64,000 bases of DNA from contig NZ_JAHBRX010000002.1 of NCBI RefSeq assembly GCF_018398335.1, positions 992,001-1,056,000 of the forward strand, written 5' to 3'. Source of the DNA: Chelatococcus sp. HY11. Its GTDB lineage: Bacteria > Pseudomonadota > Alphaproteobacteria > Rhizobiales > Beijerinckiaceae. The position numbers and the translations under genes were made by a program. The notes below the pieces were generated by a model. It ran no database searches and was not told the origin of the DNA. It saw only the letters and a list, made by a program, of their open reading frames with translations. Shown here piece by piece: positions 39,201 to 58,353 of the stretch (the first letter of the stretch is position 1; the number at the start of each line of letters is the position of its first letter).

Positions 39201-39212
39201 ATCGCCAATCTG

Positions 39213-41075: not shown

Positions 41076-41103
41076 ATTATCGAGCTGCCTAGGTGAATGT
41101 CAA
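41076..41103 (-). promoter_or_regulatory. Sigma70 promoter of the monooxygenase operon
   Basis: On the minus strand TTGACA (41103-41098) and GATAAT (41081-41076) are separated by 16 bases. The -35 hexamer overlaps the shared operator at 41100-41115, and the start codon lies about 50 bases downstream. Confidence 0.7.
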
Positions 41104-41115
41104 CATTAGTGTTGA
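41100..41115. promoter_or_regulatory. Shared operator, site 1 (monooxygenase operon)
   Basis: TCAACA-TTAG-TGTTGA, a perfect 6-4-6 dyad, 76 bases upstream of the monooxygenase start. It is one of five copies found only in promoters of the acyl-CoA island. It overlaps the -35 box, so binding should repress. Confidence 0.75.
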
Positions 41116-41411
41116 TAGATGGAGTCGGCTCGCCGCTTGTCTGTTCTGCTGGGCATGCACTGCCTTTTGAGGAAGACAAATGCAGTTACCGCATGTTCGA
41201 GTTGGGCGACAGGATTCTGCCTTGCACTAGGAAACACCCGCACATTCGCTGTCGCTTTCACGCACCTATAAGCGCAAGGTACGATTCTGGCCTTGGAGGA
41301 CGCCCCTATATTCCGTTCGAGACAAAGACGTTGATGTCCCTGATGATTTCGTGGAATATTGCGGCTGATCGGTCGGCTCACCCACTAGGGAAACAACGAT
41401 TATCGTTAGTA
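41116..41411. other. Intergenic region, no gene recognised
   Basis: Between the shared operator and the end of the MBL-fold gene there is no convincing coding frame. The part near 41390-41430 is AT-rich and lies at the 3' end of the long thiolase operon. Confidence 0.45.
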
Positions 41412-42497
41412 CTATAGATAACGTAATATAAATGAGCCATTGCTATCGTGGATTTGAACGTGCCCCCGGCGACAGAGCGCATTCACATGGGCCAGAGTTT
41501 CGGCTAATGCCAAGCCGGTCATATGAGGTGACAAGCCCGGCCGATAGAGCAACGGGACGAGGTCGATACACTGACAAGGCGAGCGCTCCACAGCTGTACA
41601 GATTTTCCGAAAGGTCTCCTCATGATGAGCGACCAACGCATCAATCCGCTCGCGTATCCCAATAAACGGCAGCTTATGACCCGATAGCACCAAGGTCGCA
41701 TCCCCAACGCTTTCCTTTATGTGATCCAACGACGCGATATAGTCATCGACAGGGCTGCCGCCAGGCTCGACGTAACTCGCCGCTAGATTGGGTGTGATCG
41801 ACGCAATCACCTGATCGCCGGACAGAAGTATATGATCGTCAGGGCTGTAGAGCATAGCCTGCTCGTCGGAGTGCCCCCCGCCGGTCATTACCGTCCAGCG
41901 CCGTCCTCCGGCTTCAATGACATCGCCATCGTGGAGACGCGCGAAGGTTGCCGGCATTGGCTGCACAACCCGCATGAAGCCGGATCCGCCGTCGGCGACG
42001 ATATGGGCGATGTCCGCAGGCATGCCATGGGCGAGCAGAAAAAGCTTCTCGATATCGGCGTGCGCCCTGAATACGCCGGAAGCTCGCAGATGCGCGTGCA
42101 GGAATTCTGTCCGGGTCATGTGTAGCTGGGCGCCGGTCCGGCGCGCCAGCCATCCGGCGGCGCCCATATGATCGGGGTGGTGATGCGTGAGGATAATGTG
42201 GTGGACTGGCTTTTCGGCAAGCATACCCTGCAGAAGCTGGTCCCACAGCGACAGGGTGGCGTCGTCTCCATAGCCGGTGTCGATTATGGTCCAACCATCA
42301 CCGTTGTCGAGAATGTAGATATTGATATGGTTCAGCCGCAAGGGAAGCGGCATGCGCAGCCAGAGGATTCCCGCCGCCACAGCTATCGCCTCGCCAGGCG
42401 CAGGTGGCGCCAGAAACGGGTAGCTGAGAGGCCTCGCCTCTCGATGCTGCGCGTCCGTACGAGGGGACGAGGGGACTATGTGCTGCGGCGGCCTCAT
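41412..42497 (-). CDS. MBL-fold metallohydrolase
   Basis: A 361-residue metallo-beta-lactamase-fold protein resembling LACTB2/glyoxalase II-like hydrolases. The metal motif is LTHHHPDHMGAAG, with later ligands in GGGHSDEQ and LSGDQVI. The C-terminal third is a helical domain typical of this subgroup. It is the last gene of the long minus-strand operon and its start overlaps the SDR gene by four bases (ATGA). A role as acyl-CoA thioesterase or lactone hydrolase on a pathway intermediate is likely but not provable here. Confidence 0.8.
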   Translation of the reverse strand: MRPPQHIVPSSPRTDAQHREARPLSYPFLAPPAPGEAIAVAAGILWLRMPLPLRLNHINIYILDNGDGWTIIDTGYGDDATLSLWDQLLQGMLAEKPVHHIILTHHHPDHMGAAGWLARRTGAQLHMTRTEFLHAHLRASGVFRAHADIEKLFLLAHGMPADIAHIVADGGSGFMRVVQPMPATFARLHDGDVIEAGGRRWTVMTGGGHSDEQAMLYSPDDHILLSGDQVIASITPNLAASYVEPGGSPVDDYIASLDHIKESVGDATLVLSGHKLPFIGIRERIDALVAHHEETFRKICTAVERSPCQCIDLVPLLYRPGLSPHMTGLALAETLAHVNALCRRGHVQIHDSNGSFILRYL

Positions 42498-43273
42498 GCG
42501 ACTGAGATGCCGCCATTGACACTGATGACCTGCCCGGTCATGCGCGCCGCGCCCGGCCCCGCCAAAAAGACTGCTACCGGTGCGATGTCGGCGGGAGTGA
42601 CGACGCCGAGGCGTGCCTTGCTTTCCGCTTTGGCAAATAGTTTCTGACTGAATTCGCTCGACATCACACGGCGATACGACGATGTATCTTTCACGATTGA
42701 GGGCGTGATTGCGTGGACGCGAATGCCGTGTCGCGAGGCTTCGAGAGCCAAGGTACGCGAGAACATGACGACAGCCGCCTTACAGGCGCCCTGCACGGCT
42801 TCACCCGGCGTTGCCACCTTCGCGGCATCGGACGCCAGATTGATGATTGTCCCGCCCTCGCGAGCGATCATATGAGGCAGCGCCGCATGGCAGGTGTAGA
42901 GGACGCTGCCAATATGCGACTGTAACTGCTCGTCAAAGGCAGATACCGAGATCTCGTGAAAGGGCCGTGGCGACAGATGCCCAGGGATGCTTGTCACGAG
43001 GATATCGAGGGCGCCGAGATCGGCTACCGCGCGATCAACCAGTGCGCGCGCTTCCTCCGGCTTGCTAGCATCGGCGCGCACGAAACGCACGTCGCAAGCT
43101 GGAGCACGAGCGCGCACCTTGGCCACGGCCTCATTGCCGCGTTCGCTATCGCGGCCGTTCAGGACCAACCTCGGGACGCCCGCTTCCGCCAGTTGTGACG
43201 CGATCTCCAACCCGATGCCGCCACTCGAGCCGGTCACGAGCGCCGCACATTCCGCCAATGGTCTGACGATCAC
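42494..43273 (-). CDS. SDR-family protein lacking the catalytic Tyr
   Basis: A 259-residue classical SDR by length and layout: cofactor motif TGSSGGIG (14-21), the catalytic Ser at 148 (INLAS) and Lys 165 (GACKAAV). The Tyr that should stand four residues before the Lys is Gln 161, so the YxxxK motif is broken. Such a protein may bind NAD(P) and substrate without normal redox catalysis, or use another residue. In this operon an SDR would be expected to oxidise a 3-hydroxyacyl-CoA or a related alcohol. Confidence 0.8.
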   Translation of the reverse strand: MIVRPLAECAALVTGSSGGIGLEIASQLAEAGVPRLVLNGRDSERGNEAVAKVRARAPACDVRFVRADASKPEEARALVDRAVADLGALDILVTSIPGHLSPRPFHEISVSAFDEQLQSHIGSVLYTCHAALPHMIAREGGTIINLASDAAKVATPGEAVQGACKAAVVMFSRTLALEASRHGIRVHAITPSIVKDTSSYRRVMSSEFSQKLFAKAESKARLGVVTPADIAPVAVFLAGPGAARMTGQVISVNGGISVA

Positions 43274-43287
43274 CCCGTCCTCCGCCG

Positions 43288-44100
43288 CTATCTGCCTGTG
43301 AAGCGCGGTGTGCGCTTTTCCATGAACGCCCGCGATCCTTCCCGAGCGTCCTCTGAGCGGAGCAGCACTTTGATGCTCGCGTCTTCCACGCCGAATGCCT
43401 CATCGAGGCTCGCGCCGGACGCCGCTACCATACACTCCTTGGCTTTGCGCATCGCCAGCGGCGAATTACGCGCCATTCTCTCCGCCATCGCACGCGCTGT
43501 TGTTTCTACCTCGCCCGCCGGGACAGCCCGATTGACGAGCCCAATGCGCAGGGCCTCACTGGCGGATATGCGATCGCCGACCAGTAGAATTTCCGCCGCG
43601 GCGGCCCAAGAGACCTGGCGCGAGACCCGTGCTACCCCGCCTGCCGCCGGGATGAGGCCCCGTTGCACTTCAAGGAGGCCGAGCTGGCTATCTTCCGCCA
43701 CGATCCTGAGGTCGCAGGCTAACGCCAACTCCATGCCCCCCGCGACGATGTTGCCGCGCATGGCTCCGATCACGGGCGTGAAAAAGTCATTGCGCCGCAG
43801 CATGGCGCGGTTGAGGATCTTAGGCTCGGCGAGCATCGCCTCGTCCCATTCATCTTCGGCCGGGCGCGCACGCGTCAGCAGCGGCGTCAGCCTTCCAAGA
43901 TCCGCCCCGGCACAGAAGGTTCCATCCCCGCGCCCGGAGAGAATAGCAATCCGGATCGCCGGATCTTCCGCAATGGCGTCCCAGGCTCGCGCGAGCCGGA
44001 CAATCATTTCTGGATTGAGAGCATTACGTTTCTCGGGGCGATTAAGCACTACTTCGGCGATGCCGTTTGCGCTGGAGAAAAGGATCGGTGCCTCGCTCAC
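43288..44100 (-). CDS. Enoyl-CoA hydratase/isomerase family protein
   Basis: A 270-residue crotonase-fold protein. The oxyanion-hole segments are FCAGADL and GNIVAGGMELALACD. The Glu of the hydratase pair is seen in QLGLLEVQRGLIPAAGG. The start is a GTG at 44100 overlapping the DUF35 stop (GTGA); the frame is open further upstream but only as a shadow of the DUF35 gene. It probably hydrates the enoyl-CoA made by the acyl-CoA dehydrogenase pair. Confidence 0.88.
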   Translation of the reverse strand: MSEAPILFSSANGIAEVVLNRPEKRNALNPEMIVRLARAWDAIAEDPAIRIAILSGRGDGTFCAGADLGRLTPLLTRARPAEDEWDEAMLAEPKILNRAMLRRNDFFTPVIGAMRGNIVAGGMELALACDLRIVAEDSQLGLLEVQRGLIPAAGGVARVSRQVSWAAAAEILLVGDRISASEALRIGLVNRAVPAGEVETTARAMAERMARNSPLAMRKAKECMVAASGASLDEAFGVEDASIKVLLRSEDAREGSRAFMEKRTPRFTGR

Positions 44101-44516
44101 GCCATGCCCTCCTGGTCTCGATCGGCCCAGACGTAGGAGAATTCGGGATCGATGACTTCGACCCGCAAAGCAACCGGTAGATCGAGAGTGATCTGGTCGG
44201 CCGTCAGTTCGGTGCGTGCCAATAGACGCGGGCCCTCTTCCGTCTCGGCGACGATCGTGACGTAAGGCACCCGATCCTTCCATGCGGTCTCCACAGAGAA
44301 ATGAGAGACCGTATAGGAATGGATTCTGGCCCGCCCGGATACCGGACGGAAGCTGAATTTCTCCGAGGCGCAGCGCGGGCAGTAATAACGGGCCGGGTGG
44401 GTCCACTGACCGCAGTCCTCGCATTGCTGGAGACAGAGGCGCCCGGTAGCTGCGGTGGCAGAATAGAAGGCCAGATCCAGGTCGTCAGGCTGAACTCTTG
44501 GCTTTGCGCTTGTCAT
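44097..44516 (-). CDS. DUF35 OB-fold protein with zinc ribbon
   Basis: A 139-residue protein with a rubredoxin-like zinc ribbon (CEDCGQW at about 32, then YYCPRCAS) and a DUF35 OB-fold (IHSYTVSHFSV, PYVTIVAE). DUF35 proteins pair with thiolase-fold partners; in steroid side-chain degradation such a pair performs a retro-aldol cleavage. It overlaps the thiolase-fold gene upstream by one base, so the two are probably a complex. Confidence 0.88.
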   Translation of the reverse strand: MTSAKPRVQPDDLDLAFYSATAATGRLCLQQCEDCGQWTHPARYYCPRCASEKFSFRPVSGRARIHSYTVSHFSVETAWKDRVPYVTIVAETEEGPRLLARTELTADQITLDLPVALRVEVIDPEFSYVWADRDQEGMA

Positions 44517-45706
44517 CAGCCGTTCCTTCCTAGGATTGCGATCGTTCCGTCGCCAAGATCTCCGTAGCCGGTAACGAGCCCTAACTCGCAGCCGGCGACC
44601 TGAGACTTACCCGCGTCATGACGCAGCTGGCGTACCGCTTCCACGATATGGTTCATGCCCCAGCAGTGTCCTTGCGACATCAGCCCGCCATGCGTATTCA
44701 TCGGAAAACGGCCGCCGAGTTCGATGGCGCCGTCCTTCACGAAGTCCGCCGCTCCGCCACGTTCGGCAAACCCCAGTGCCTCCAGTTCAAGCAGCGCGAC
44801 ATAGGTGAAACAATCGTAGATCTGCAGAAAATCCATGTCCTGCGGCTTGACGCCCGCCATTGCAAAGGCGCGCGGTGCAGCGGAGTCGAGACCAAGTCTA
44901 AGGATATCCTGACGGTTGATCAGCTCATCGGGACGGTTCGGATGGCCCTCGGCCCCACCAAGAAAGGTAACGGGTACATGGCGCAGATCCCGTGCGCGTT
45001 CAGGCGATGTCACGATGATCGCCGCTGCACAATCAGTCTCGACGCAACAATCATACTTGCGTAATGGCTCGGCGATGAATGTGGACGCCAGGTATTCATC
45101 CATAGTCAAGCCGCGATCACGCATGACCGCTCTGTCATTCAGCTGCGCATGTTTGCGACAGGCCACAGCTATTGCACCTGCGGCCTCTGGTGGCACGTTG
45201 TACATCTTGACATAACGTTGCAGATAGAGCGAATACCACCATGGCGCGGAACGCAAACCATACGGCGCGTAGTAATTCTTGACCGTCTCGAAGAACGCTG
45301 CGGAAAAACGTCGTTTGTTCGGCCGTGCATCGGGACGGGGCCGCAAGGCGGAGTAGCCATTCCAGCCGATTGGCACGAGAACGACCTCGGCCATGCCGCT
45401 TGCAATGGCCATGGATGCATTGATCAAACCGGCGGTTGGGCTCGCGCCGCCCATCTGCGGGCACGCCGTATAGCGCACATCCGACACGCCAAGATGCGCG
45501 GCGATCTCGTCCCAGGCCACGAATCCGGGTGGAGGGATGATGCCATCGATATCGGATGGTTTCAGCCCGGCGTCCCTGATCGCAGACATGCTGGCACCGA
45601 CGACCATCTGGAGGATCGATTGGTCCGTGCCACGCATGTATTCGGTCTCGCCGATACCTACAACAGCTGCAGCACCCGAGAGGCCCGAGCCTGATCTCTT
45701 GCCCAT
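44516..45706 (-). CDS. Thiolase-fold protein, lipid-transfer/aldolase type (copy 1)
   Basis: A 396-residue member of the SCP-x/Ltp thiolase group. The C-terminal signature NTHGGLMSQGHCWGMNHI keeps both His-containing loops. The nucleophilic Cys of true thiolases (in C-A-S-G) is not found; the matching stretch reads QMGGASPTAG. This fits the Ltp2-like retro-aldolases rather than acetyl-CoA-forming thiolases. It overlaps the zinc-ribbon DUF35 gene, its likely partner. Confidence 0.83.
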   Translation of the reverse strand: MGKRSGSGLSGAAAVVGIGETEYMRGTDQSILQMVVGASMSAIRDAGLKPSDIDGIIPPPGFVAWDEIAAHLGVSDVRYTACPQMGGASPTAGLINASMAIASGMAEVVLVPIGWNGYSALRPRPDARPNKRRFSAAFFETVKNYYAPYGLRSAPWWYSLYLQRYVKMYNVPPEAAGAIAVACRKHAQLNDRAVMRDRGLTMDEYLASTFIAEPLRKYDCCVETDCAAAIIVTSPERARDLRHVPVTFLGGAEGHPNRPDELINRQDILRLGLDSAAPRAFAMAGVKPQDMDFLQIYDCFTYVALLELEALGFAERGGAADFVKDGAIELGGRFPMNTHGGLMSQGHCWGMNHIVEAVRQLRHDAGKSQVAGCELGLVTGYGDLGDGTIAILGRNG

Positions 45707-45728
45707 ATCACTCTTCCTGCCAGCCCGC

Positions 45729-46190
45729 TCAAACCAAGCGGAAAGAGAAGTCGGTAATCCGCCCCTGCGGATTGTCGATGAATTCCACCTTAACCCGCGG
45801 GAGCTTGCTCAGGCTCTTCGCCGCGGCGTTGATGTCGCTGAGATCAACGCCATGGATGAAGTTGATCAAGGCGGTATCAGCACCGTCAAGGGTCACATAG
45901 CCCATGACTAAAGGCGGCTCGGGCAATCCTGGGAAGGCAGCCGTTATAATCGTGAAGGTCTCCAGCGTGCCTTCCGGCCCCACCGCGACCCAGTCGTCGG
46001 TAGGCTCCATGGTTTCGTCATCGAACGCGCGGGCCGGCACCAGGACACGCCCACCCTCTTGGGTTCGGGTGCCCATGATGCGACGGTTCTCCCGAAGCTC
46101 CCGGAAGAAGCGGCTCGCGCTCTCACCTGCGAAATAGTTGAAATTGAAGTTCCAGTTGCCTGGTATAGTGACAAATTCGTCATTCTTCAT
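45729..46190 (-). CDS. DUF35 OB-fold protein without zinc ribbon
   Basis: A 153-residue protein matching the DUF35 layout (FFRELRENRRIMGTR, then RVLVPARAF and an OB-fold with LETFTIITAAFPG). The four Cys of the zinc ribbon are absent: the place of the first C-x2-C is occupied by GTRTQEGG. The ATG at 46190 has GAGGAG six bases upstream. It lies 10 bp after the thiolase-fold copy 2 gene and probably binds that protein. Confidence 0.78.
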   Translation of the reverse strand: MKNDEFVTIPGNWNFNFNYFAGESASRFFRELRENRRIMGTRTQEGGRVLVPARAFDDETMEPTDDWVAVGPEGTLETFTIITAAFPGLPEPPLVMGYVTLDGADTALINFIHGVDLSDINAAAKSLSKLPRVKVEFIDNPQGRITDFSFRLV

Positions 46191-46200
46191 CTCAGTCTCC

Positions 46201-47364
46201 TCAGTGCACCGGACGACGGCCGAGAACGCAGACCGTGGAGAACTGCGTGGCGCCACCTTGCCCGGTCGCAACCGCGCGTTCGACATCTGCTACTTGACGC
46301 TCGCCCGCCAGCCCGCGCACCTGAAGAGCGCATTCGGCGATGCGAACCATCGCGGTCGCGCTGACCGGATTTGCACCTTGAGGGCCTCCGGACGGGTTGA
46401 AGACCGGCAGTCGCGAGTCGGTGAATTGTGCCTCGACGAACGCTGGACCGTCCTCCGGTGCGCAGAAGCCAAGGGCCGGATAGGCCATGGCCTCGGCGCT
46501 TGAGAAAGCCGAGTAAAGCTCCGCGACGCGCAACTCATCTCGCGGACGCGTAATCCCTGCTTGTCCATAGGCTTTCCCAGCAGCAAGGCGGAGCGACAGC
46601 AGGTCGACGAGGGTGGCCCCCGGGCGATGAATGCGGTCTCCCATGGCATAGCTGTCGGTGATCGAGGCTGCGCCCTGCACCCAGGCTGGCCGGCGATCCC
46701 CGACGTGCTCCGGTGCCACGATGACCATTGCGCAGGCACCTTCCGACATGGGGCATGCCTCAAAACGGTGGATGGGCCAAGCCAGCAGCTGGGAAGCCAG
46801 CACGTCTTCAGGCGAGATATCCTTTCGCAGATGTGCCAGGGGATTCCGAAGTGCGTTCCGGAAGCTGCGCGAGGCAATTTCGGCCCAGTGTCTCTCCGTG
46901 TAGCCATAGAGACGCATCAGCATCGATGCGCGCAACGCAGCCATCGTGATTGTGGTAAGCGGGAAATCCTTCTCATAGATCGGATCGAAGATCGTATTGA
47001 AGACCTGTTGAGACGAGGTCGCTTGCCCCATTCGCTCCAGGCCGACGACGAGCACGGCCTTCGCGCGGCCGGAGTTGATGTAGGACAAGGCGGCGAAGAC
47101 AGTGGAGGAGCCCGTGACACCGCCGGTATTGACCCTCAAAAACGGCTTTCGGCGTCCCAGCATGCCGGTGCGTTCGACGGAATTTTCACCCGAGAGTCCA
47201 TCAGGCGCCACGCCTGCCAGGATAACGTCGATCCCGTCGATCCCGACACCTGCGTCCTCTAGCGCGAGACGGGCGGCTTGCCAAATCAACTCGCGCGAGC
47301 TCTTGTCGGGGTGGGAGCGACGGTAACCGGTCTGGCCGACCCCGATGATAGCGGCGGATTTCAT
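46201..47364 (-). CDS. Thiolase-fold protein (copy 2)
   Basis: A 387-residue thiolase-superfamily protein starting MKSAAIIGVGQTGY. The ATG at 47364 has GGAGG upstream and overlaps the preceding gene by four bases. The place of the active Cys reads NTGGVTGSST, so no nucleophile is visible. The C-terminal loop is NPSGGPQGANPVSATAMV, without the usual GHP His. It is therefore probably a non-thiolytic aldolase or a structural partner within a thiolase-DUF35 complex. Confidence 0.8.
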   Translation of the reverse strand: MKSAAIIGVGQTGYRRSHPDKSSRELIWQAARLALEDAGVGIDGIDVILAGVAPDGLSGENSVERTGMLGRRKPFLRVNTGGVTGSSTVFAALSYINSGRAKAVLVVGLERMGQATSSQQVFNTIFDPIYEKDFPLTTITMAALRASMLMRLYGYTERHWAEIASRSFRNALRNPLAHLRKDISPEDVLASQLLAWPIHRFEACPMSEGACAMVIVAPEHVGDRRPAWVQGAASITDSYAMGDRIHRPGATLVDLLSLRLAAGKAYGQAGITRPRDELRVAELYSAFSSAEAMAYPALGFCAPEDGPAFVEAQFTDSRLPVFNPSGGPQGANPVSATAMVRIAECALQVRGLAGERQVADVERAVATGQGGATQFSTVCVLGRRPVH

Positions 47365-48437
47365 ACAGCCTCCACGATGACGGCGGTTTGGGTTTGTCCG
47401 GCAATGATGGACGAGCCAGACGCGAAGGCGACGCGGGGGGTTCCCTGCTGGTTGCCGCCAGCTCTGCCTTGCAGCTGAAGGGTCGCCTCTGCCAGACGGA
47501 TCAGGCCCATTGCCGGGGCGCAATATCCCGATGCGCCGCCACCCGAGGGATTGCACCGCGGGTCATCCGCCAAACGCCGAAGCCCCCCGCCCTTTTCGGC
47601 AAGCCCGATCGCTTCGAGCGCAATGCCCTCATCGAAGATCGTGAGCCCATCGACTTCGAAGAGATCGATCTGATCGACGGTCATCTGTGCCTCCGACAGG
47701 GCACGTTGCGCGGCCATCCTCAGCGCGTCAGCGCGCGCCAATCGTCGGTCGCCGGGCCAGTAAGGCTCCGAAGACAATCCTATCCCGCGCAGCCGTACCG
47801 ACGCCGGTCGGCGTGACAGCACCATTGTGACCGTCACATCGGCCCAACGCGGAAGGTGCGACGCCTCCAGAGGATAAGACGGAACAGACTGGCGACCGCC
47901 TTCCTTCAACGCGCGAGGATTGGCCCGACGCATCATCTCGCGCCGCTGGTTCGCCTCGGCAACCGAGGCGACGTCGCCGCCGTCGATCAGCCAGCGCTGA
48001 GCATTCATTGCCGATACATGCAATTCCTCGATCCCCAAGGGTCGAAAAAAGACGGGATCGAACAGCGCGCGGGACACCCCTTCCACGTCATGTTCCGATG
48101 CCCTCCCCCAAGCGGAAACGATCGTTCGCTCACATTCGCCAGCTTCAAGCCGATTGACCGCGGCTGCGAACGCACCCGCTCCATCATCTCCGTAACGCAC
48201 TTCATCACGCAGATAGGCACCAGCGGCAGGCGCGGTGACCATGCTGGACAGTGAACGGCCATCAACCAGATCGTGCGCAGCAAGCACGACCGACTCGATT
48301 CCTTCCCAGCCGCGCCCGGCGTCATCAATGGCGCGCGTCGTCGACGAAAAAATCAGTTCCGGAAGGCTACGGCGCGCATCAGCCCAACTGATCTCCATAG
48401 CGACGCCCTCGATAAATATATCGCCACCTTCGGCCAT
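47361..48437 (-). CDS. Thiolase-fold protein, degenerate (copy 3)
   Basis: A 358-residue thiolase-like protein. Fold marks remain (IDDAGRGWEGIESVVLA, QIDLFEVDG, NPSGGGASGYCAPAMGLIRL), but the GHP His is replaced (SGYCAP) and the Cys loop is unrecognisable (DEVRYGDDGAGA). It is most likely a non-catalytic partner of copy 2. The ATG at 48437 follows GAGGAG; the frame extends upstream to 48650 as a shadow of the ligase gene. Confidence 0.75.
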   Translation of the reverse strand: MAEGGDIFIEGVAMEISWADARRSLPELIFSSTTRAIDDAGRGWEGIESVVLAAHDLVDGRSLSSMVTAPAAGAYLRDEVRYGDDGAGAFAAAVNRLEAGECERTIVSAWGRASEHDVEGVSRALFDPVFFRPLGIEELHVSAMNAQRWLIDGGDVASVAEANQRREMMRRANPRALKEGGRQSVPSYPLEASHLPRWADVTVTMVLSRRPASVRLRGIGLSSEPYWPGDRRLARADALRMAAQRALSEAQMTVDQIDLFEVDGLTIFDEGIALEAIGLAEKGGGLRRLADDPRCNPSGGGASGYCAPAMGLIRLAEATLQLQGRAGGNQQGTPRVAFASGSSIIAGQTQTAVIVEAV

Positions 48438-48522
48438 CCATTTCTCCTCTCGACAGGCGTATGCCGCAGACGGCCCGCGCCCGATATCGTGTGTACGGCG
48501 TCCCAGGGCGGCAGCGTTCCGA

Positions 48523-50166: not shown

Positions 50167-50195
50167 GCATAAAGTGCCTGCGGACGATCTGTCAA
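50167..50195 (-). promoter_or_regulatory. Promoter of the ligase-thiolase operon
   Basis: On the minus strand TTGACA (50195-50190) and TTATGC (50172-50167) are spaced by 17 bases. The -35 box is perfect and overlaps the shared operator; the -10 box is weak. Confidence 0.5.
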
Positions 50196-50208
50196 CACAT
50201 ATGTTGAC
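50191..50208. promoter_or_regulatory. Shared operator, site 2 (ligase-thiolase operon)
   Basis: GTCAACACATATGTTGAC, an 18-base perfect palindrome and the best copy of the island motif. It sits between the stop of the cyclase gene and the GTG of the ligase gene. Confidence 0.8.
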
Positions 50209-50224: not shown

Positions 50225-51103
50225 CTACAGGATCGCTACAGGCGTCACGGGACTACCGACTCCCCCCCGGATGGCGAGGGGAGCAACGACGAACATCACG
50301 GCCGACGGCGCGAGTTGCGAGAGGAGCTCGAGATCCAGAAGTTCAGCGAGGTAGACCCCATGATCACGCATGACTGCGATGTGCAGCGGCATCGCACAGG
50401 TGGGATCACGAGAAGGCATGACTTCAACGGCTATATTATCCGCCGCGAGTAATGAAAATTCCTGTTCGATAATCCAAGGCGCACAATTATGATGCAGGCC
50501 CGCCGTACTTGCCTTGTCGGCTCGCCCCTCTCTCCAGGCTTTCAGCCAGCCGGTGCGCATCAGAAGCGCATCGCCGGGGCACGGTGTGATCCCGGTTTCA
50601 GATACAGCCTTACGCAGCCTGTCGACCTCGATCGCCTGCTCCGGGCTAAAGGAAGGATCGTGTGCGAAGTCCACAAAAATGGCGCGCGTGCAGAAGGCGC
50701 CGACGCGCTCAATTCCGCACCGGCTCGCTCCGCGGCTCGTCACCTGCGTTGCGGGGAACCCATTATACATCTCGCCACCCCGCCAGACGTGGGCGAGCGC
50801 ATCGATATGCGTTACCCCGTGCGTCGGCAGCATGATCACGTCATCCGAAAAGCCGTAGCCGGCTCGCTCAGGTAGACCTGCGGCGTAGTCACCACCATGT
50901 CGGGTCATGAAATGCTGCGGCGGGGCCCGCAAATCGGCGCCTGGACCACGCTCCCCATTGGCGATCGGGATGGCGAGCGGAACAACGAGACCGGTTCGCA
51001 CGGATGCGACCCCGCGCAATGTTGCTGCCGCATCGATTAGATTGGCCGCGCCGCGCTCGTCCTCGGCGCCCCAGCGGGACGGCCATACCTTTCCCTCGCT
51101 CAT
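50225..51103 (-). CDS. Cyclase-family (kynurenine formamidase-like) metal-dependent hydrolase
   Basis: A 292-residue protein of the 'cyclase' family (PF04199). The metal site is THGVTHIDALAH, matching H-x-G-T-H-x-D-x-x-x-H with Val for one Gly-adjacent residue. Members hydrolyse amides or cleave C-C bonds in cyclic diketones. It overlaps the acyl-CoA dehydrogenase gene by four bases (ATGA), which sets the start at 51103 rather than further upstream. In this operon it may open a ring, for example a cyclic ketone or lactone made by the flavin monooxygenase. Confidence 0.82.
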   Translation of the reverse strand: MSEGKVWPSRWGAEDERGAANLIDAAATLRGVASVRTGLVVPLAIPIANGERGPGADLRAPPQHFMTRHGGDYAAGLPERAGYGFSDDVIMLPTHGVTHIDALAHVWRGGEMYNGFPATQVTSRGASRCGIERVGAFCTRAIFVDFAHDPSFSPEQAIEVDRLRKAVSETGITPCPGDALLMRTGWLKAWREGRADKASTAGLHHNCAPWIIEQEFSLLAADNIAVEVMPSRDPTCAMPLHIAVMRDHGVYLAELLDLELLSQLAPSAVMFVVAPLAIRGGVGSPVTPVAIL

Positions 51104-52197
51104 CGGGATTGCTCCAGGCTGGCTTGGGCGAGCCACGCCTGCTCGCGTAATGCGGTCGGGCCACCGTAAAGTTGTGCGCTCCAGTTGATCCGCTTGAACC
51201 AATAATGCAGGCCGAGTTCATCCGTAATGCCAATCCCGCCATGAACTTCGACGGCATTGCGCGCAACGACGCGCCCTGCCTCGGAGAGATAGGCCTTGGC
51301 ATGCAGGGCACAGACATGGGAGTCCTGAAGCGCCAGATCGAATGCATGCGCGGCGTACCATAGCAATGCGCGCCCCGGCTCAAGCTCAGCGGCGGCATCG
51401 GCGCAGAGATGCTTGACCGCCTGAAAGCTCCCGATGGGTCTGCCAAATTGCTGGCGCGTTCCAGCATAGGCAACCGCTTCGCGCAACATGTGACCAGATG
51501 CGCCAAGAATATCGGCCGCAAGAGCGAGGCGCAGCGTGTCGCCGAGCCTTTCTAGCACGGGCGGACCGGCGCCAGGCAAGGGATCGGCAGGGACCTCATC
51601 GAACACGATCTCAAAGGCCTGGCGCGTGCAATCCACCGTCTCCAAATATTGCATCGTGAGACCACGAGCGAGCGTGTCGACGAGGAAAAGCCCACCCGCG
51701 TGATCCGCCACAAGCAGGCGATGCGCGCCGGCGACGTCGACTGCAAAGAGCGAGCGACCTGTCAAAAGGCCATTTCGCACGTGGATCCTTGCATCATGGC
51801 GCGCCCCAGCCAGCGGTTCCGACACTGCGATACCGACACGTAGGGTGCCAAGAGCAATTTCGGGCAACAGGGTCGCCTGCTGTTCCGGGCTACCGGCCTC
51901 TATGAGCGCGATCGGCGCGGCGACTACGGAGCCGAGAAACGCGCAAGGCGTCGCGCATCGACCAAGTTCTTCTGCGACCACCACCGCATCGAGAAGCCCA
52001 AGCCCGTGCCCCCCATATCTTTCTGGTACGAGCAGGCCGGGTATGCCCAGATCGCAAAACCCCTCCCACACGTCGGCAGCAAAACGATCGCCTTCTTGCC
52101 CGGCGCGACGCAGGCGCTCCATTGGAACAAGGCAACGTACTGCCTTGCCAACCTGCTCCTGCAGCAAGAGCTGGTTCTCGCTCAAGGAAAAATCCAC
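51100..52197 (-). CDS. Acyl-CoA dehydrogenase, small subunit lacking catalytic Glu
   Basis: A 365-residue acyl-CoA dehydrogenase. FAD-side motifs are present (TRQQFGRPIGSFQAVKH, VEVHGGIGITDE), but neither position used for the catalytic Glu carries one: the inner-helix site reads LRLALAADILG, and the C-terminal E-G-T motif is replaced by YGGPTALRE. This is how the inactive half of heterotetrameric steroid-type dehydrogenases (ChsE1-ChsE2 style) looks. The GTG at 52197 has AAGGGA upstream. Its end overlaps the cyclase gene; its partner lies just upstream. Confidence 0.84.
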   Translation of the reverse strand: MDFSLSENQLLLQEQVGKAVRCLVPMERLRRAGQEGDRFAADVWEGFCDLGIPGLLVPERYGGHGLGLLDAVVVAEELGRCATPCAFLGSVVAAPIALIEAGSPEQQATLLPEIALGTLRVGIAVSEPLAGARHDARIHVRNGLLTGRSLFAVDVAGAHRLLVADHAGGLFLVDTLARGLTMQYLETVDCTRQAFEIVFDEVPADPLPGAGPPVLERLGDTLRLALAADILGASGHMLREAVAYAGTRQQFGRPIGSFQAVKHLCADAAAELEPGRALLWYAAHAFDLALQDSHVCALHAKAYLSEAGRVVARNAVEVHGGIGITDELGLHYWFKRINWSAQLYGGPTALREQAWLAQASLEQSR

Positions 52198-52223
52198 GGT
52201 GTTTGTCCCTTCGATCGACGGAA

Positions 52224-53420
52224 CTAGAGCTTGGCCATCTTGGGTTCGCGTGGAAGTCCAAGTCCGCGTTCCGCAATGATGTTGCGCTGAATCTGCGCAG
52301 TTCCCCCGCCGATGATCATCCCGAGGTCGAACATCAATCGCTTTTGCCAAAGGCCTCCGGCGCGACTATGGGCGGCATCGTTGTAGAGCAGTCCCATCTC
52401 GCCCATGACATCGACTGCGAGCGCAGCGATCTGGTGATTGAGTTCGGTTGCCTGCAGCTTAACGATGAGGCGCGGCAGGACGAGGTCCTCACCCTTATGC
52501 GCGGCCGTCAGAAGACGCATGGCATGGTATTTCATCGCCAGCGCCCGCCCCTGCAGGCGCATGGCCCTGTCGCGCCAGACTGGAAGTTCTATCGCACTGA
52601 CGCCGTCCACGGTTTCATCGGCCATGAGCCCGAGCAAATTCCGGATCCGTGCCAGTGCGGCGTGGGGGTCGCCCAGCATCCCTCGCTCATGCTTGAGGGT
52701 CGAATTTGAAACGCGCCAGCCGTCTCCCCGTGCCCCGATGACCTGATGCTTCGGCACCCGCACATCTGTCAGGAAGACCTCATTGAATTCGGCGGCGCCG
52801 GTCATTGTGCGCAGAGGTCGCACCTCTATACCAGGCGTCTGCATCGACAGGCAAATATAGGTGATGCCCCGATAGCGGTTTTTTGCTTCGAGTTCCGTCC
52901 TCACCAACGCAAACATCATGTCGGCGGCATGGGCAGTGGTGGTCCAGATCTTCTGGCCATTGATGATGAAGTCGTTACCATCCTCAACCGCAAAGGTCCG
53001 GAGCGATGCAAGATCCGACCCCGCCCCCGGTTCCGAGTAGCCCTGGCACCAGATCAATTCGCCACGTATCGTGCGCGCGATCCAGTCCTGCTTTTGAGCC
53101 TCCGTGCCCCACTCGAGCAGGGTCGGGACGAACATCGAAATGCCTTGGTTGACAAGGCCCAGCGGAGCTCTCGCTCGAGCGAATTCCTCACCGAGGATCT
53201 GCGCTCTCATGATATCTGGAGGACATTCCGCGCCGCCGTAGCGCCGCGGCACGCCACGTGCCACATAGCCGCGCTCGATCAACAGTCGCTGCCAAGCCAC
53301 GGCTTCGGCAGTCGGCCGGTTGACCCCGAAGTGCTTTGGTATCGCGCGCGCATTCTCGGCAAGAAAGTTCTGAACTTCCCGGCGGAAGCTCTCGTGCTCG
53401 CCTGAGTAAGACAAGTCCAC
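52224..53420 (-). CDS. Acyl-CoA dehydrogenase, catalytic subunit
   Basis: A 398-residue acyl-CoA dehydrogenase with WCQGYSEPGAGSDLASL, IINGQKIWTTTAH and GGTAQIQRNIIAERGLGLPR. The classical Glu before G-T is Gly (IIGGGTA), but LKHERGML carries a Glu at the alternate (isovaleryl-type) position. It would oxidise a branched or ring-attached acyl-CoA together with the small subunit 26 bp downstream. The GTG at 53420 is picked for its GAGGAG; an ATG at 53465 has none. Confidence 0.87.
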   Translation of the reverse strand: MDLSYSGEHESFRREVQNFLAENARAIPKHFGVNRPTAEAVAWQRLLIERGYVARGVPRRYGGAECPPDIMRAQILGEEFARARAPLGLVNQGISMFVPTLLEWGTEAQKQDWIARTIRGELIWCQGYSEPGAGSDLASLRTFAVEDGNDFIINGQKIWTTTAHAADMMFALVRTELEAKNRYRGITYICLSMQTPGIEVRPLRTMTGAAEFNEVFLTDVRVPKHQVIGARGDGWRVSNSTLKHERGMLGDPHAALARIRNLLGLMADETVDGVSAIELPVWRDRAMRLQGRALAMKYHAMRLLTAAHKGEDLVLPRLIVKLQATELNHQIAALAVDVMGEMGLLYNDAAHSRAGGLWQKRLMFDLGMIIGGGTAQIQRNIIAERGLGLPREPKMAKL

Positions 53421-53655
53421 GCTGCTCTCCTCAACATTAGATAACGCGCAATCACGCGGAGCCATCCTCGATCAGCCTTGGAAATCCATCCTGATCTCGA
53501 TGCAGAGCGGATCGTCGATCAGGCCGCGGTCATCGCCCCGCTGAAATTGGGGTGTCATGATACCGTCAACCGAGGACGACTGATCTTGTACACTTCGGCT
53601 GCTGGCAGGCCAGCTCGTCGCTTGACGATCGTCAAGACGTGCCGGTCCATGGCCG

Positions 53656-54828
53656 CTAGGCAACATGTTTCCCATTGCGCAACGACTGTATCATACTGGC
53701 ATCCAGCCCGAGCACCTGGCTCAAAATCGTGTCCGCATCCTCGCCGATGTCGGAAACGCGCCTTGGCCCGCCGGTCTTCGCGCGAGAGAAACGAAAAGGT
53801 TGATGTGGGATGAGAAACTCCCCGCTTCCGTCGTGGTTCGCTTCGAAACTGCCGCGCTCCTGCATAACCGGATCGGCGATCAACTCGGCGGTGGTCGCAT
53901 AGCGCGAGCACGGCACTCCTGCAGCCATCATGATGGACTCGCACTCACCAGCACTTCGCAGGATGGTCCACTCCTCGATAAGTCCCATCAACTGGGACCA
54001 GTTCTGCTCGCGTGCGCGAATAGTCGAGAATCGGGGATCATCGCGCCATTCGGGCCGCCCTGCAGCCGCAGCCAGATTTTCGAAGTTCTTCTGATTCACC
54101 GGAGCGATCATGACGAAGCCATCCGACGTCCTGAGAGGCTGATATAATGGTCGGCGTTGATCTGACTGAAATTGTGCTTCCTGCATCTCGTAGACCAACA
54201 TGTTCAGCATCGAATCGATGAGTGTGACGTCAATGTGCTGCCCGCACCCGAAGCGCTCACGATGCAACAGCGCCGTCTGAATCGCGCCGAAGGCGTAAAT
54301 TGCCGCGATCACGTCAGCTGTGAAAATTCCGGTTACGGCCGGGCGTTCGAGATGATCGTTGTAGCGCAGATGCGCCATGTCGTAGCCGCTGGCAGCGTGT
54401 ATGATCGGCGCATAGGCAGGGTCGCGTGCTCGCACACCGCTCTGTCCGAAGCCGCTGATTGAACAATAAACGAGCTTCGGAAAACTATCTTTCAAGGCCC
54501 CAAAGCCCAACCCCAGGCTATCCATGACACCCGGACGAAAATTTTCCACGACAACATCCGCGCAAGCAATCAAGCGAAGCGCCACGTCTCGTCCCTTGTC
54601 TGACTTAAGATCAAGAACGATGCTCTTCTTCCCTCCGTTCATCTGTCCGTAATAGGCACTGCGACCGTCGCGCAGGGGTGATCTATAGCGCATGTAGTCA
54701 CCAGCCGCGCTCTCCACCTTGATGACTTCAGCTCCGCAATCGACAAGCATGCGTGTCGCGAACGGGCCCGCCATCATGGAGGTGAAATCGATCACCCGAA
54801 GGCCATTGAGTGTACCGACATCAGACAT
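53656..54828 (-). CDS. CaiB/BaiF family CoA-transferase
   Basis: A 390-residue class III CoA-transferase-fold protein. It begins LNGLRVIDFTSMMAGPFATR, followed by KSIVLDLKSDKGRDVALRLI and ENFRPGVMDSLGLG; the catalytic Asp is expected in FTADVIAAIYAFGA. It moves CoA between acids, or acts as a racemase. Compared with the copy at 38019 it looks more like the CoA-transferase side of the family. It lies 188 bp downstream of the TRAP binding-protein gene, probably in the same transcript, and 235 bp before the dehydrogenase pair. Confidence 0.86.
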   Translation of the reverse strand: MSDVGTLNGLRVIDFTSMMAGPFATRMLVDCGAEVIKVESAAGDYMRYRSPLRDGRSAYYGQMNGGKKSIVLDLKSDKGRDVALRLIACADVVVENFRPGVMDSLGLGFGALKDSFPKLVYCSISGFGQSGVRARDPAYAPIIHAASGYDMAHLRYNDHLERPAVTGIFTADVIAAIYAFGAIQTALLHRERFGCGQHIDVTLIDSMLNMLVYEMQEAQFQSDQRRPLYQPLRTSDGFVMIAPVNQKNFENLAAAAGRPEWRDDPRFSTIRAREQNWSQLMGLIEEWTILRSAGECESIMMAAGVPCSRYATTAELIADPVMQERGSFEANHDGSGEFLIPHQPFRFSRAKTGGPRRVSDIGEDADTILSQVLGLDASMIQSLRNGKHVA

Positions 54829-55016
54829 GCTCTTGTTTCCTCACCATACCGCCCGCCACTTTTTGCGCAACTAGCCAAGCATCTCCGAACACGCCCGCGT
54901 AGTAAAGCGACCTAACGCTTGCGCTTTTTCGCGAACTCTATTGCCCACATCCGTGACGCCGCTCGCGAGCGATTACCTCAGACGTCCGAAATAAGCTAAA
55001 CGCCCTGGGACTCGTG

Positions 55017-56036
55017 CTAGCGTACGGGTTCAGCCGGAACTGCACGCGTCCGATCGATCGATACACGCAGCGCGGCTATGAATTCGTCTGCTTTGTCCGT
55101 GCGTTTTCGGAGATCCGCGAGGTACTTATCCCAGAACGGCGCGGCCGCCGCATGTAATTTTTCGAGTTCAGCTGGCGCGAAATCCGCAATGATTCCACCA
55201 TGCTTGAGCAGTATCTTGAGACCCTCCTCATCCGCCGCGTCATAGGCTGGACCGAGTTTCTTCTGCGCTTTGTCGGAGGCTTCAGTAACGGCACGCTGTT
55301 GCTCCGGTGTAAGCGAATCCCAAGTGTCCAGGTTCATGATGGCAGCAAGAGGAGTCGAGGAGTAGTTGATGCGACTGATAAAGGTTGTCACCTCCTCCAT
55401 CTTGTAACCCGGCGCGCTTGCGAGCGGCATCAGCAGGCCTTCGATCGTTCCACGCTCGAGCCCGACGTATTTCTCCGAGATGGGCATGAAGTCGGCCACC
55501 GCGCCAAGGCCCGCAAGAAACTGCTGCTGCGCCGCGCCGGAACCGCTGATACGCGCCCCGCGAATTTTTTCCACCGTATCGATGGGCCGCTTCGAGGTCA
55601 AAAGCGCGGCAGCAGTGTTAACGGTCATGAAAAGGAACTTTACAGTATCGAACTCCTCCTCGACATAGGGCTGAAGTTCCCTGTAGACGCGGCCTCCGTG
55701 ACTGGCATTGTCGAATGCGAACGGCAAGGACCCTGATTCCGTCAGAGGGAACCGGCCTGCCGTATAGCTTGGAACGACCATTGCGATGTCGGCGATTCCG
55801 TTCTCGACAAGCATCAACTGATCGCTGATTTTCCCTAACACGCTATTCCCGAATAGGACGATCTCAAGCTCGCCGTTTGTGCCGGCCGCAACGTCCTTGG
55901 CAAAGGGAATGAACACCTCAGGTGTCATAAAATGTGACTCGCTGAACCAAAGCGACATCTTCAACTGACGTGCCTCAGCGGAAATGCTGGACAGCATAGC
56001 GGCGATAAGCGAGACTGATGCCAGGATTTTCTTCAT
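55017..56036 (-). CDS. TRAP transporter solute-binding protein (DctP)
   Basis: A 339-residue periplasmic protein. The ATG at 56036 starts a clear signal peptide (MKKILASVSLIAAMLSSISA) and follows GGGGAGG by six bases. The mature part has the DctP pattern (VENGIADIAMVVPSYTAGRF, EKIRGARISGSGAAQQQFLAGLG in pieces, DTWDSLTPEQQRAV). It should bind an organic acid and pass it to the DctQ/DctM proteins encoded divergently. A shared operator lies 69 bases upstream. Confidence 0.9.
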   Translation of the reverse strand: MKKILASVSLIAAMLSSISAEARQLKMSLWFSESHFMTPEVFIPFAKDVAAGTNGELEIVLFGNSVLGKISDQLMLVENGIADIAMVVPSYTAGRFPLTESGSLPFAFDNASHGGRVYRELQPYVEEEFDTVKFLFMTVNTAAALLTSKRPIDTVEKIRGARISGSGAAQQQFLAGLGAVADFMPISEKYVGLERGTIEGLLMPLASAPGYKMEEVTTFISRINYSSTPLAAIMNLDTWDSLTPEQQRAVTEASDKAQKKLGPAYDAADEEGLKILLKHGGIIADFAPAELEKLHAAAAPFWDKYLADLRKRTDKADEFIAALRVSIDRTRAVPAEPVR

Positions 56037-56104
56037 GGCTAACCTCCCCGTTCTTCCGATCTTTTTAGGGCCGCGCGCCCTTCTCCGGAAAAGACATGGC
56101 GCTC

Positions 56105-56120
56105 TCAACACTGATGTTGA
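56105..56120. promoter_or_regulatory. Shared operator, site 3 (TRAP binding-protein operon)
   Basis: TCAACA-CTGA-TGTTGA, a perfect 6-4-6 dyad upstream of the minus-strand DctP gene. On that strand TTGAGA overlaps it as a possible -35; no good -10 is seen. Confidence 0.75.
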
Positions 56121-56313: not shown

Positions 56314-56329
56314 TCAACATACGCGTTGA
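56314..56329. promoter_or_regulatory. Shared operator, site 4 (DctQM operon)
   Basis: TCAACA-TACG-CGTTGA, one mismatch from a perfect dyad, 131 bases before the DctQ start. It overlaps the -35 of the promoter at 56326-56353. Confidence 0.7.
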
Positions 56330-56353
56330 ATTCCCTTGAGATGGCAATATAGT
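56326..56353 (+). promoter_or_regulatory. Sigma70 promoter of DctQM
   Basis: TTGAAT (56326-56331) and TATAGT (56348-56353) with a 16-base spacer. The -35 lies inside the right half of operator site 4. Confidence 0.65.
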
Positions 56354-56460
56354 CACTTGAGACTCATCAACGGCCGGCCGATCACGTCCAGCGTCTCAGG
56401 GGACAGCCTCATCAGAGCCGGCGCGGTAACGAAATTCCGCAAATAACGGGAGGAGCTGAC

Positions 56461-56958
56461 GTGGCTACGCTATGGGCGAGATTAAGTGGTTTCTGCTCGT
56501 TTGTAGGTATGTACATGATCTTCTGCATGATGTTTCTCATCAGTGGTGAGGTCTTGTTCCGGTACTTTCTCGGGCGATCGATCCCCGGTACGATTGAAGT
56601 CACTCAGTTCCTACAGGTCGTGGCTGTTGGGCTTGGAGTGTCCTACACTCAGCGTCGTGGCGCCAATATTTCTGACGACTTTTTCGTCGATATGCTGCCA
56701 AATCGGTGGCAGATCGTAATTCGCGGTTTTCACTATCTGGTCGCGGCGGTCATTTGCGGGATTATGGCCTATGCCATTTTCAAATTGAGCAGCACGCGCG
56801 GCGCCATGCGCGAGTATACAGACACGTTGCGGATACCTCTTTATCCTTTTCGGTTCTTGCTCGCTGGCGGCTTTGCTCTGTTGGCGATCCAGCTGATTAT
56901 CGACGCGTTTCATCCGGCACGTCCCCATACCGACGCCGCGATCCAGGAGGTGCGCTAA
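56461..56958 (+). CDS. TRAP transporter small permease (DctQ)
   Basis: A 165-residue, four-helix inner-membrane protein. It starts with GTG after GGGAGGAG, and shows the family phrase GEVLFRYFLGRSIPGTIEVT followed by the second helix region. It is the small subunit of the TRAP importer and couples to the large one through a TAATG overlap. Confidence 0.88.
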   Translation: MATLWARLSGFCSFVGMYMIFCMMFLISGEVLFRYFLGRSIPGTIEVTQFLQVVAVGLGVSYTQRRGANISDDFFVDMLPNRWQIVIRGFHYLVAAVICGIMAYAIFKLSSTRGAMREYTDTLRIPLYPFRFLLAGGFALLAIQLIIDAFHPARPHTDAAIQEVR

Positions 56959-58262
56959 TGACCGCGATGGTTATTGCATTCGCGATCCTGCTTGTGCTCC
57001 TCTTTGCGGGAATGCCTGTCGGCTTCGCGATGATGTTGGTCGGTTTCATAGGAACCGCGGCCGTCTATAACTGGAACTGGACTGCGGCTATCGCTCTTGT
57101 CGGCATAGAGCCCTACTCTCAATCCAGTAATTACCTTTTTGTAACAATCCCGCTCTTTGTCTTGATGGGTCATTTCACATTTGCGTCCGGGATAAGTCGT
57201 GAAATGTTCGCGGCGGCGCGCGCCTGGTGTGGACATTGGCGCGGCGGCCTGCCCACGGCGACGATCGGCGCCTGCGCCGGGTTTTCAGCCGCTTGCGGAT
57301 CCAGTTTAGCCACGGCGGGAGCAATTGGTACGATCACAATCGGCGAGATGCGCGAGCGCGGGATTCACCCGGGCATCGCGACGGCGACCGTCGCGGCTGG
57401 CGGAGCGATGGGATCGCTGATACCGCCTAGCATTTCGATGATTCTCTATGGGCTGATTGCAGACCAATCGATCGGACGACTGCTCATGGCTGGCATCGTA
57501 CCGGCACTCATGCTGATTGCCCTGTTTATACTGACGATCCTCATCATCGCCTGGTTTTATCCGCAGCGTATGCCACGGATGGCGAAACTGCCTTTACGCG
57601 ACCGAATCCACGCCACGCGCGGCGTTTTCGGCATCACCATGCTCACGCTGCTTGTTCTTGGTGGAATTTACGGCGGCATCTTCACCCCAACGGAAGCGGC
57701 GGGGATCGGCGCGCTCGGCGCGTTCATCATCGTCATCTACCGGGGGCGCGGCCTGCGCATCAGCGTCTTGAACTCGGCATTGCGAAGCACGCTCGAAACC
57801 ACCTGCATGATATTTATCATCCTGATCGGCGCGCACGTTCTGAATGTCTTCCTTGCGGCCACGCGCGGCCCTGCCGAACTCGCTGCCTGGGTCGAGACCC
57901 TTGGTCTCAGTCCCTATGTATTCTTTGCCCTCATCATCGTCATGTATATCGTGCTCGGCACCTTTCTCGATGCCCTCGCCATGATTGTTCTTACTGTTCC
58001 GGTGCTTCAGCCGGTGCTCATGAACATGGGCTTCGACATGGTCTGGTTTGGCGTGATCGCTGTGCTTGTCATGGAGATGGCGATCATCTCTCCTCCCGTC
58101 GGTATGTGCGTCTATGTGGTCAAGGGTGTAGCAAAGGATGTCCCATTGCATGTAATTTATAATGGGATCTGGCCCTTCATGGGGGCTATGGTTATCCTTG
58201 TTGCGATTCTCACCGTGTTCCCACAGATCGCTCTGTTCCTTCCGAACCTGATGTACAATTGA
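56958..58262 (+). CDS. TRAP transporter large permease (DctM)
   Basis: A 434-residue protein with about 12 membrane helices. Family marks are FAGMPVGFAMMLVGF, IPLFVLMGHFTFASGIS, GSSLATAGAIGTITIGEM and the repeat GTFLDALAMIVLTVPV. The start at 56958 overlaps the DctQ stop. It forms the sodium-driven channel of the importer; with the divergent DctP it brings the island's carboxylic acid substrate into the cell. Confidence 0.92.
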   Translation: MTAMVIAFAILLVLLFAGMPVGFAMMLVGFIGTAAVYNWNWTAAIALVGIEPYSQSSNYLFVTIPLFVLMGHFTFASGISREMFAAARAWCGHWRGGLPTATIGACAGFSAACGSSLATAGAIGTITIGEMRERGIHPGIATATVAAGGAMGSLIPPSISMILYGLIADQSIGRLLMAGIVPALMLIALFILTILIIAWFYPQRMPRMAKLPLRDRIHATRGVFGITMLTLLVLGGIYGGIFTPTEAAGIGALGAFIIVIYRGRGLRISVLNSALRSTLETTCMIFIILIGAHVLNVFLAATRGPAELAAWVETLGLSPYVFFALIIVMYIVLGTFLDALAMIVLTVPVLQPVLMNMGFDMVWFGVIAVLVMEMAIISPPVGMCVYVVKGVAKDVPLHVIYNGIWPFMGAMVILVAILTVFPQIALFLPNLMYN

Positions 58263-58337
58263 GCCACTGGAAGCCAGGCGGCATCCCGACCTGTGCGACG
58301 CCATCAGGGATGCCCCCGCCGTCGTAAAGTCGAGCAG

Positions 58338-58353
58338 TCAACACTTTCGTTGA
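58338..58353. promoter_or_regulatory. Shared operator, site 5 (nitronate monooxygenase-like gene)
   Basis: TCAACA-CTTT-CGTTGA, extended to GTCAAC...GTTGAC (58337-58354), 75 bases upstream of the start. On the plus strand TTGACA (58350-58355) and TAGCGT (58373-58378), 17 bases apart, form a promoter whose -35 overlaps it. Confidence 0.72.

Follow-up and report, generated by a model that had tools for sequence, protein, structure and literature searches.

A palindrome confined to one catabolic island of Chelatococcus sp. HY11 and the TetR-family regulator that probably reads it

Why should the same short palindrome stand in front of several gene units of one bacterial locus, and which protein, if any, reads it? 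The locus is a stretch of 64,000 nucleotides from Chelatococcus sp. HY11 (contig NZ_JAHBRX010000002.1, positions 992,001 to 1,056,000 of the forward strand), called the window here and numbered from its first letter. A preliminary description had reported five copies of TCAACA-N4-TGTTGA (or CGTTGA) in it and had proposed that a TetR dimer, most simply the protein encoded from 59762, represses the units behind them until a coenzyme A (CoA) thioester accumulates. From the sequence evidence gathered below, we put at roughly 90% the probability that the palindrome is the operator of TetR 59762, whose dimer would repress the units of the island by covering their -35 elements and would be relieved by an acyl-CoA thioester. 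The sites and the regulator are as follows, with scores from a weight matrix that was built from 160 foreign sites, no window site included, and run over the window and the adjoining 16 kb (80 kb).

41100 to 41115, minus strand: candidate operator 1, TCAACATTAGTGTTGA, score 26.6; TTGACA-16-GATAAT, putative -35 of the flavin monooxygenase (FMO)/CaiB unit 38019-41024
50192 to 50207, minus strand: candidate operator 2, TCAACACATATGTTGA, score 26.7; TTGACA-18-TATGCT, putative -35 of the acyl-CoA ligase/thiolase unit 41412-50124
56105 to 56120, minus strand: candidate operator 3, TCAACACTGATGTTGA, score 18.4; weak -10; upstream of DctP and probably also of the genes behind it (50225-56036)
56314 to 56329, plus strand: candidate operator 4, TCAACATACGCGTTGA, score 21.2; TTGAAT-16-TATAGT, putative -35 of DctQM 56461-58262
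58338 to 58353, plus strand: candidate operator 5, TCAACACTTTCGTTGA, score 25.5; TTGACA-17-TAGCGT (3/6), upstream of the nitronate monooxygenase-like gene 58429-59577
59718 to 59733, plus strand: degenerate candidate operator, TAAACGCCATTGTTGA, score 12.4; 1 mismatch on the minus strand, 28 bases before the TetR ATG
59762 to 60397, plus strand: TetR-family regulator, 211 amino acids, TetR_N and TetR_C_24 domains

The five palindromes were reported with correct coordinates and sequences, and the 2 reported -10 boxes, GATAAT at 41081-41076 and TATAGT at 56348-56353, are present, each 16 bp from a TTGANN. The distances from site to start codon are 67-75 bases for four of the sites (68-76 in the preliminary description) and 131 for 56314. 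The preliminary description had found no other copy by eye; the degenerate copy at 59718-59733 had been overlooked, and the set of sites continues beyond the window end.

How exclusive to this region is the palindrome? Within the window, matches with at most 2 mismatches number 23 (strands counted apart) against 5.8 expected, and none of 100 shuffles reaches 23. In the genome as a whole (6.95 Mb searched, 6 contigs, 99.4% complete) the perfect dyad TCAACA-N4-TGTTGA occurs in 3 places, all in the window, and TCAACA-N4-YGTTGA in 7, all within one 27-kb stretch (C2:1033100-1060350). These 7 are the five reported sites together with C2:1060287 and 1060335, 4.3 kb past the window end, which lie between a divergently oriented ABC substrate-binding protein gene and SDR gene (L006:5288-5303 and 5336-5351 in our locus numbering). 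With one mismatch allowed, dozens of matches to TCAACA-N4-YGTTGA are scattered across the genome, and so the test has to rest on strong sites. The looser core TCAAC-N6-GTTGA has 13 occurrences, 7 in the island and six elsewhere; the latter, three inside called genes and three between, score 10.9-15.9 as against 18.4-26.7 for the island sites. In the 80 kb, the top eight matrix matches are the seven island sites and 59718, the next best reaching 8.3; since the six non-island core places score as they do, 59718 is notable by its position rather than by its score alone. The preliminary description had also pointed to equally good matches inside genes elsewhere as something to look for. We scored 20 non-island places, the six above and 14 hand-picked one-mismatch ones, of which 14 are in called genes and six, scoring 7.4-15.5, in called intergenic DNA; the whole set runs from 4.4 to 15.9, below the weakest strong island site at 18.4, and the matrix ceiling for the remaining one-mismatch places is about 19.8. 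A regulon spread through this genome was thus rejected, since none of the 20 matches the strong island sites.

The evidence that ties the palindrome to this particular protein comes from loci for which the TetR was the sole criterion of choice. We searched a genome collection with an alignment of seven TetRs and kept the best 80 of 169 confirmed loci; their TetR orthologues are 34-57% identical to the window protein and belong mostly to Proteobacteria and Actinomycetota. When all 1024 five-base half-sites were scanned at spacers 0-12 over these 1.34 Mb, TCAAC-N6-GTTGA came first both by loci (67/80) and by copies (160). The runner-up by loci, GTCAA at spacer 8 (61 loci), is an extension of the same dyad, and the runner-up by copies (105) is a G+C-rich dyad. 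The controls were flat: at spacer 6 none of the 59 other half-sites of the same composition (both strands) exceeded 10 copies, and TCAAC never exceeded 6 at any other spacer. Called genes make up 83% of the survey DNA, and 159 of the 160 dyads are intergenic, as compared with 32 genic dyads out of 32 for 58 control half-sites; 149 have a start no more than 400 bp away, and 82 are flanked by two divergent starts. At a matrix score of at least 12, the 80 loci hold 241 intergenic matches in 0.26 Mb (training sites included) versus 5 genic ones in 1.08 Mb, and an intergenic site of that score is present in 71/80 loci. The conservation in related islands that the preliminary description had asked about is therefore found near TetR orthologues and between called genes. 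The extended consensus is about yGTCAACR-yWWr-YGTTGACr, its sixth base practically never C.

What could such a site do? The 3′ half of each reads GTTGANN toward the gene, which is a -35 hexamer. Across 211 oriented starts, TATAAT-like hexamers peak 17 bp from the embedded TTGANN (mean 1.82/6 versus 1.25, z 6.4), and where a divergent region has just one dyad (37 cases), the -10 position rises on either side (1.73 and 1.70 versus 1.24 and 1.14), in keeping with a single operator for two promoters. In the window, good -10 boxes follow the sites at 41100, 50192 and 56314. We infer, then, that a homodimer of TetR 59762 would bind the palindrome yGTCAACR-yWWr-YGTTGACr; because each half-site GTTGACN would double as the -35 hexamer of a promoter, the bound protein would block RNA polymerase and shut off the units of an acyl-CoA catabolic island of roughly 31 kb; at the weak site 59718 it may also block its own gene. 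Activation of an island substrate would yield a CoA thioester, which would bind the C-terminal domain and release the dimer. An activator, or a regulator acting with both signs at the same sites, has a precedent in FasR, a TetR-like activator of the same superfamily (as given in the accessible part of PMC7382501), but the dyad sits on the -35 position itself, which favors steric repression, and we regard a mainly activating role as improbable.

Is TetR 59762 the right protein, or could the dyad belong to another regulator that travels with such islands, a second TetR or one encoded elsewhere in the genome, with 59762 a bystander? There are candidates: other TetR genes lie nearby (window 32441-33100 and L006:10576-11397), and a first look at the genome gave 39 candidates for this TetR. 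Still, the surveyed loci were picked by this TetR only, and although their gene content varies the dyad is present in 67 of 80; the 80-kb matrix scan shows no site above 8.3 near the other two TetR genes. Moreover, the absence of the dyad correlates with the recognition helix of this protein. Perfect dyads are lacking at 13/80 loci, among them L050, L055, L071, L072 and L101 (hosts Pseudonocardia, Amycolatopsis and Streptomyces), which are the only five with alanine at the last position of DRA[ST], where the window protein has Ser57; the dyad is thus missing in 5/5 DRAA orthologues versus 8/75 others (Fisher p 5e-5). In TetR itself the equivalent position is presumably Thr40, a residue that contacts bases. 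Another operator was sought at the five DRAA loci and not found. Four further loci (L031, L075, L077, L081) have one-mismatch sites in place of the perfect dyad. On these grounds the bystander reading is a shade less probable still than the activating one, and the proposal that TetR 59762 is the cognate regulator is strongly supported by the co-occurrence of dyad and TetR across phyla and by the helix correlation.

Three genomes of the same genus give the complementary picture, with neither an orthologue (paralogues only, in one genome, 31% at best) nor any exact site. At E <= 1e-25 the TetR is rare nearby, being found in 2/397 sampled genomes of the order (its own and G122) and in 4/385 of the class, its own included. 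At least one exact match occurs in 98/199 genomes, mostly as one to three copies; among the matches listed, those of G122 form a cluster, with three exact sites within 10 kb of its TetR. One is 117 bp upstream of the TetR start, one 65 bp upstream of an FMO gene, and the third, which touches the 3′ end of the preceding gene, stands before an SDR/thiolase/OB-fold unit. Of four plasmids with a relative, three were examined (annotated plasmids of Rhodococcus ruber, L023, Sphingopyxis, L024, and Sphingobium, L025); they hold nine TCAAC-N6-GTTGA dyads, all between listed genes, the gene table being incomplete. The genome-wide picture in 15 genomes with relatives is mixed: among the matches listed, all 6 dyads of G882 fall within 22 kb of one contig and 7 of the 9 in G888 within 29 kb. 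In the same comparison, close pairs of related dyads, mostly TCAACC-N4-GGTTGA, were seen 22-45 bp apart (among the matches listed, G775:C1:262970/263010, G891:C28:12576/12598, G884:C4:397327/397372 and G890:C3:92539/92579); these are probably the box of another regulator, since the sites of this TetR almost never have C as their sixth base.

The remaining alternative, that the palindromes are chance matches, strong -35 motifs or a mobile repeat, could appeal to the TTGACA-like hexamer in each half-site and to scattered chance matches across genomes, but it was rejected, and its probability is negligible, because the spacing is fixed at 6, dyads of the same composition are rare and genic, the flanks of the copies differ from each other, and all 7 exact copies in the genome fall in one 27-kb stretch.

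Several observations weigh against the repressor-operator reading. No dyad was found in 3.6-kb stretches around distant TetR relatives in G775, G511 and G603 (37, 37 and 28% identity), G775 having three sites 7-13 kb from its TetR, and among the matches listed G880 (P. xenovorans LB400) has 11 dyads versus 18 for the reversed control and is not above background. Within the survey there is no site in L033, L039 and L097, which are short contigs of 3.5-8.8 kb, nor in L035, 15 kb long and unexplained. Judged without a tree, the five DRAA loci seem to form a single clade, so that the helix correlation does not represent five independent events. The -10 signal is of modest size: 34/211 starts have a hexamer with at least 4 matches 16-18 bp away (shuffle mean 14.8, largest 26 in 300 shuffles); the side without a called gene also rises at spacer 17 (1.64 versus 1.24), and the -10 boxes at operators 3, 5 and 59718 are poor. 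The putative autoregulatory site 59718 is degenerate, and a site scoring at least 12 lies within 300 bp upstream of the TetR gene in 18/78 orthologues. Finally, genes were called with a home-made caller, checked visually against the annotation of L024 and L025, that misses or mis-starts some, including the ligase at 48523, and the surveyed loci, being the best 80 of 169, have close relatives among them.

What the same palindrome near the same kind of repressor in very different bacteria tells us is, first of all, that it is almost certainly the repressor's switch. Beyond this, we lean toward the view that a cross-phylum TetR subfamily keeps one operator code, TGTCAACR-N4-YGTTGACA, from Proteobacteria to Actinomycetota, despite the identities of 34-57% and despite differing targets (flavin monooxygenases, ligases, TonB receptors, luciferase-like enzymes, ABC and TRAP importers). 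What would keep the code fixed is that every half-site also serves as a -35 hexamer, which lets one symmetric site be the shared -35 and operator of two divergent promoters; the change of Ser/Thr57 to Ala would mark a clade that left this code.

The protein itself is an ordinary TetR in outline. PF00440 (TetR_N, the N-terminal helix-turn-helix domain) is matched at residues 26-72 (E 1.3e-17), and the AlphaFold2 model (mean predicted local confidence, pLDDT, 89.7) has the all-helical two-domain TetR fold with a helix at 55-61. The best-ranked PDB fold matches of the model are TetR regulators, PfmR and KstR2 on top, with AibR bound to isovaleryl-CoA, FadR and MbdR further down; several of these proteins are acyl-CoA sensors. 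No NCBIfam equivalog scored above its cut-off for this protein; identity as FadR of the Bacillus type (NF053878) was rejected at 59.5 bits, at least 200 being required. A CoA thioester is a likely ligand, given these fold matches to acyl-CoA-responsive TetRs and the many acyl-CoA enzymes among the targets, and the degenerate site 59718 may serve weak autoregulation.

In the logic of its regulon, the nearest published parallel is KstR of mycobacteria (Rv3574; cholesterol catabolism), with another palindrome. As described in the accessible part of PMC1995591, KstR too is one TetR with a short palindrome that was found by conservation and stands in many copies over promoters between divergent genes, sometimes two to a region, with a lipid/CoA catabolic regulon and autorepression. 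Comparing the proteins by description only, the difference is that the KstR palindrome, TAGAAC-N2-GTTCTA, overlaps the -10, whereas TCAAC-N6-GTTGA lies over the -35; the KstR operator as given in that text, TnnAACnnGTTnnA, was rejected for the present sites, whose dyad is TCAAC with a fixed spacer of 6 and is rare at other spacers. KstR2, a TetR repressor that responds to HIP-CoA, is the second closest solved sequence and among the closest folds (template-modelling, TM, score 0.83), but at 28% identity a close relation to it (Rv3557c) was rejected, and the present island differs in including TRAP and ABC importers and a flavin monooxygenase. The HIP-CoA effector is made by FadD3, itself in the KstR2 regulon (PMC5380842, accessible part). 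PfmR of Thermus thermophilus (3vpr) is the best solved match by sequence (E 8e-24) and by fold; it is about 30% identical, the N-terminal arm is unmatched, and its helix reads SKAALYHH as against DRASLYYY in the window protein. The fold matches 5k7z (isovaleryl-CoA and operator DNA), 3whc (stearoyl-CoA), 3anp (lauroyl-CoA) and 4uds, of the AibR/FadR/MbdR kind, are 16-23% identical. EdcR of Caenibius tardaugens is likewise a TetR repressor of a catabolic cluster with palindromic operators on promoters, but its proposed operator, TnnCnnTACnAnTnGTAnnGnnA, overlaps the -10 (PMC8700777, as far as its accessible text goes). In the portions available, the authors of the bile-salt cluster TetR of Caenibius propose other palindromes (PMC12882949), so that it was rejected as a match, and the TetR of PMC10304680 has another motif, G/CAAAC(N2-4)GTTTG/C. 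Two papers containing operator-like strings were set aside, the strings, in the text at hand, lying in primers or ribosome-binding sequences. In the accessible text of the open-licence literature, including PMC11667970, PMC2277422, PMC6352095, PMC5343134 and PMC6921075, no description of this operator or subfamily was found; subscription literature may hold one. TetR repressors that respond to CoA ligands and act at palindromes over promoters are well known as a kind; what appears to be new here is the regulator subfamily and its operator, which is unusually broadly conserved. An unannotated TetR thereby gains a defined operator and, with it, a predicted regulon of roughly 28 genes under seven strong operators and a weak one; this regulon would delimit one catabolic island, importers and enzymes beyond the window end included. 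Sites of this kind, present near the TetR in 71 of the 80 other loci, could help to sort still unassigned catabolic enzymes into groups. They also point to a family of related sensors that share one DNA address and presumably differ in their ligands, and the overlap of -35 and operator would explain why the sites are conserved over such distances.

Turning to what the sites control, every unit of the block has one, the units being delimited by spacing, from which the operon limits are inferred.

38019 to 39134, minus strand: CaiB-type CoA-transferase, unit 1; TTG start guessed
39213 to 41024, minus strand: flavin monooxygenase-like protein (Pyr_redox/FMO), unit 1
41412 to 50124, minus strand: unit 2, with ligase 48523-50124, thiolase-like genes 47361, 46201 and 44516, OB-fold genes 45729 and 44097, ECH 43288, SDR 42494 and MBL 41412; co-transcription assumed
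50225 to 56036, minus strand: unit 3, with DctP 55017-56036, CaiB 53656, acyl-CoA dehydrogenases 52224 and 51100 and cyclase 50225; co-transcription assumed
56461 to 58262, plus strand: unit 4, TRAP transporter DctQ and DctM
58429 to 59577, plus strand: unit 5, nitronate monooxygenase-like flavoprotein
60702 to 64000, minus strand: distal part of unit 6, with acyl-CoA ligase 60702-62699, ECH 62696-63508 and the start of ABC genes; co-transcription assumed

Unit 3 has two gaps, of about 190 and 235 bp. Past the window end, the SDR gene adjoins the two outside operators, as does the unit of the ABC importer and second ligase; since these two sites would be the operators of unit 6, the window genes 60702-63508 (second ligase and ECH) probably belong to the regulon. 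The TctA/TctC transporter, the other TetR gene and the thiolase-like genes beside the island (L006:6958-14053) showed no operator in the 80-kb scan.

In the surveyed loci, 175 genes were called downstream of dyads, and 124 of them (in locus order, L026-L086) were scanned for families: Pyr_redox/FMO-type flavoenzymes 14, AMP ligases 12, TetR 11, TonB plug domains 10, SDR 8, luciferase-like 7 and acyl-CoA dehydrogenases 6. An FMO at 40% or more was found in 12 of 85 sequences compared. The nearest islands share modules with the present one (ligase/thiolase/OB/ECH/SDR/CaiB in L026; thiolase-OB-cyclase in L016 and L044), for which reason no substrate is named; a search of the gene content of related islands for a common substrate identified none. 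At six loci (L029, L040, L051, L052, L056 and L094), two or three operators start 16-106 bp apart in one intergenic region, which suggests cooperative or double-promoter control. Lastly, window 35667-36664 carries HTH_AraC and DJ-1/PfpI domains on two overlapping minus-strand frames, like a GlxA-type regulator gene split by a frameshift.

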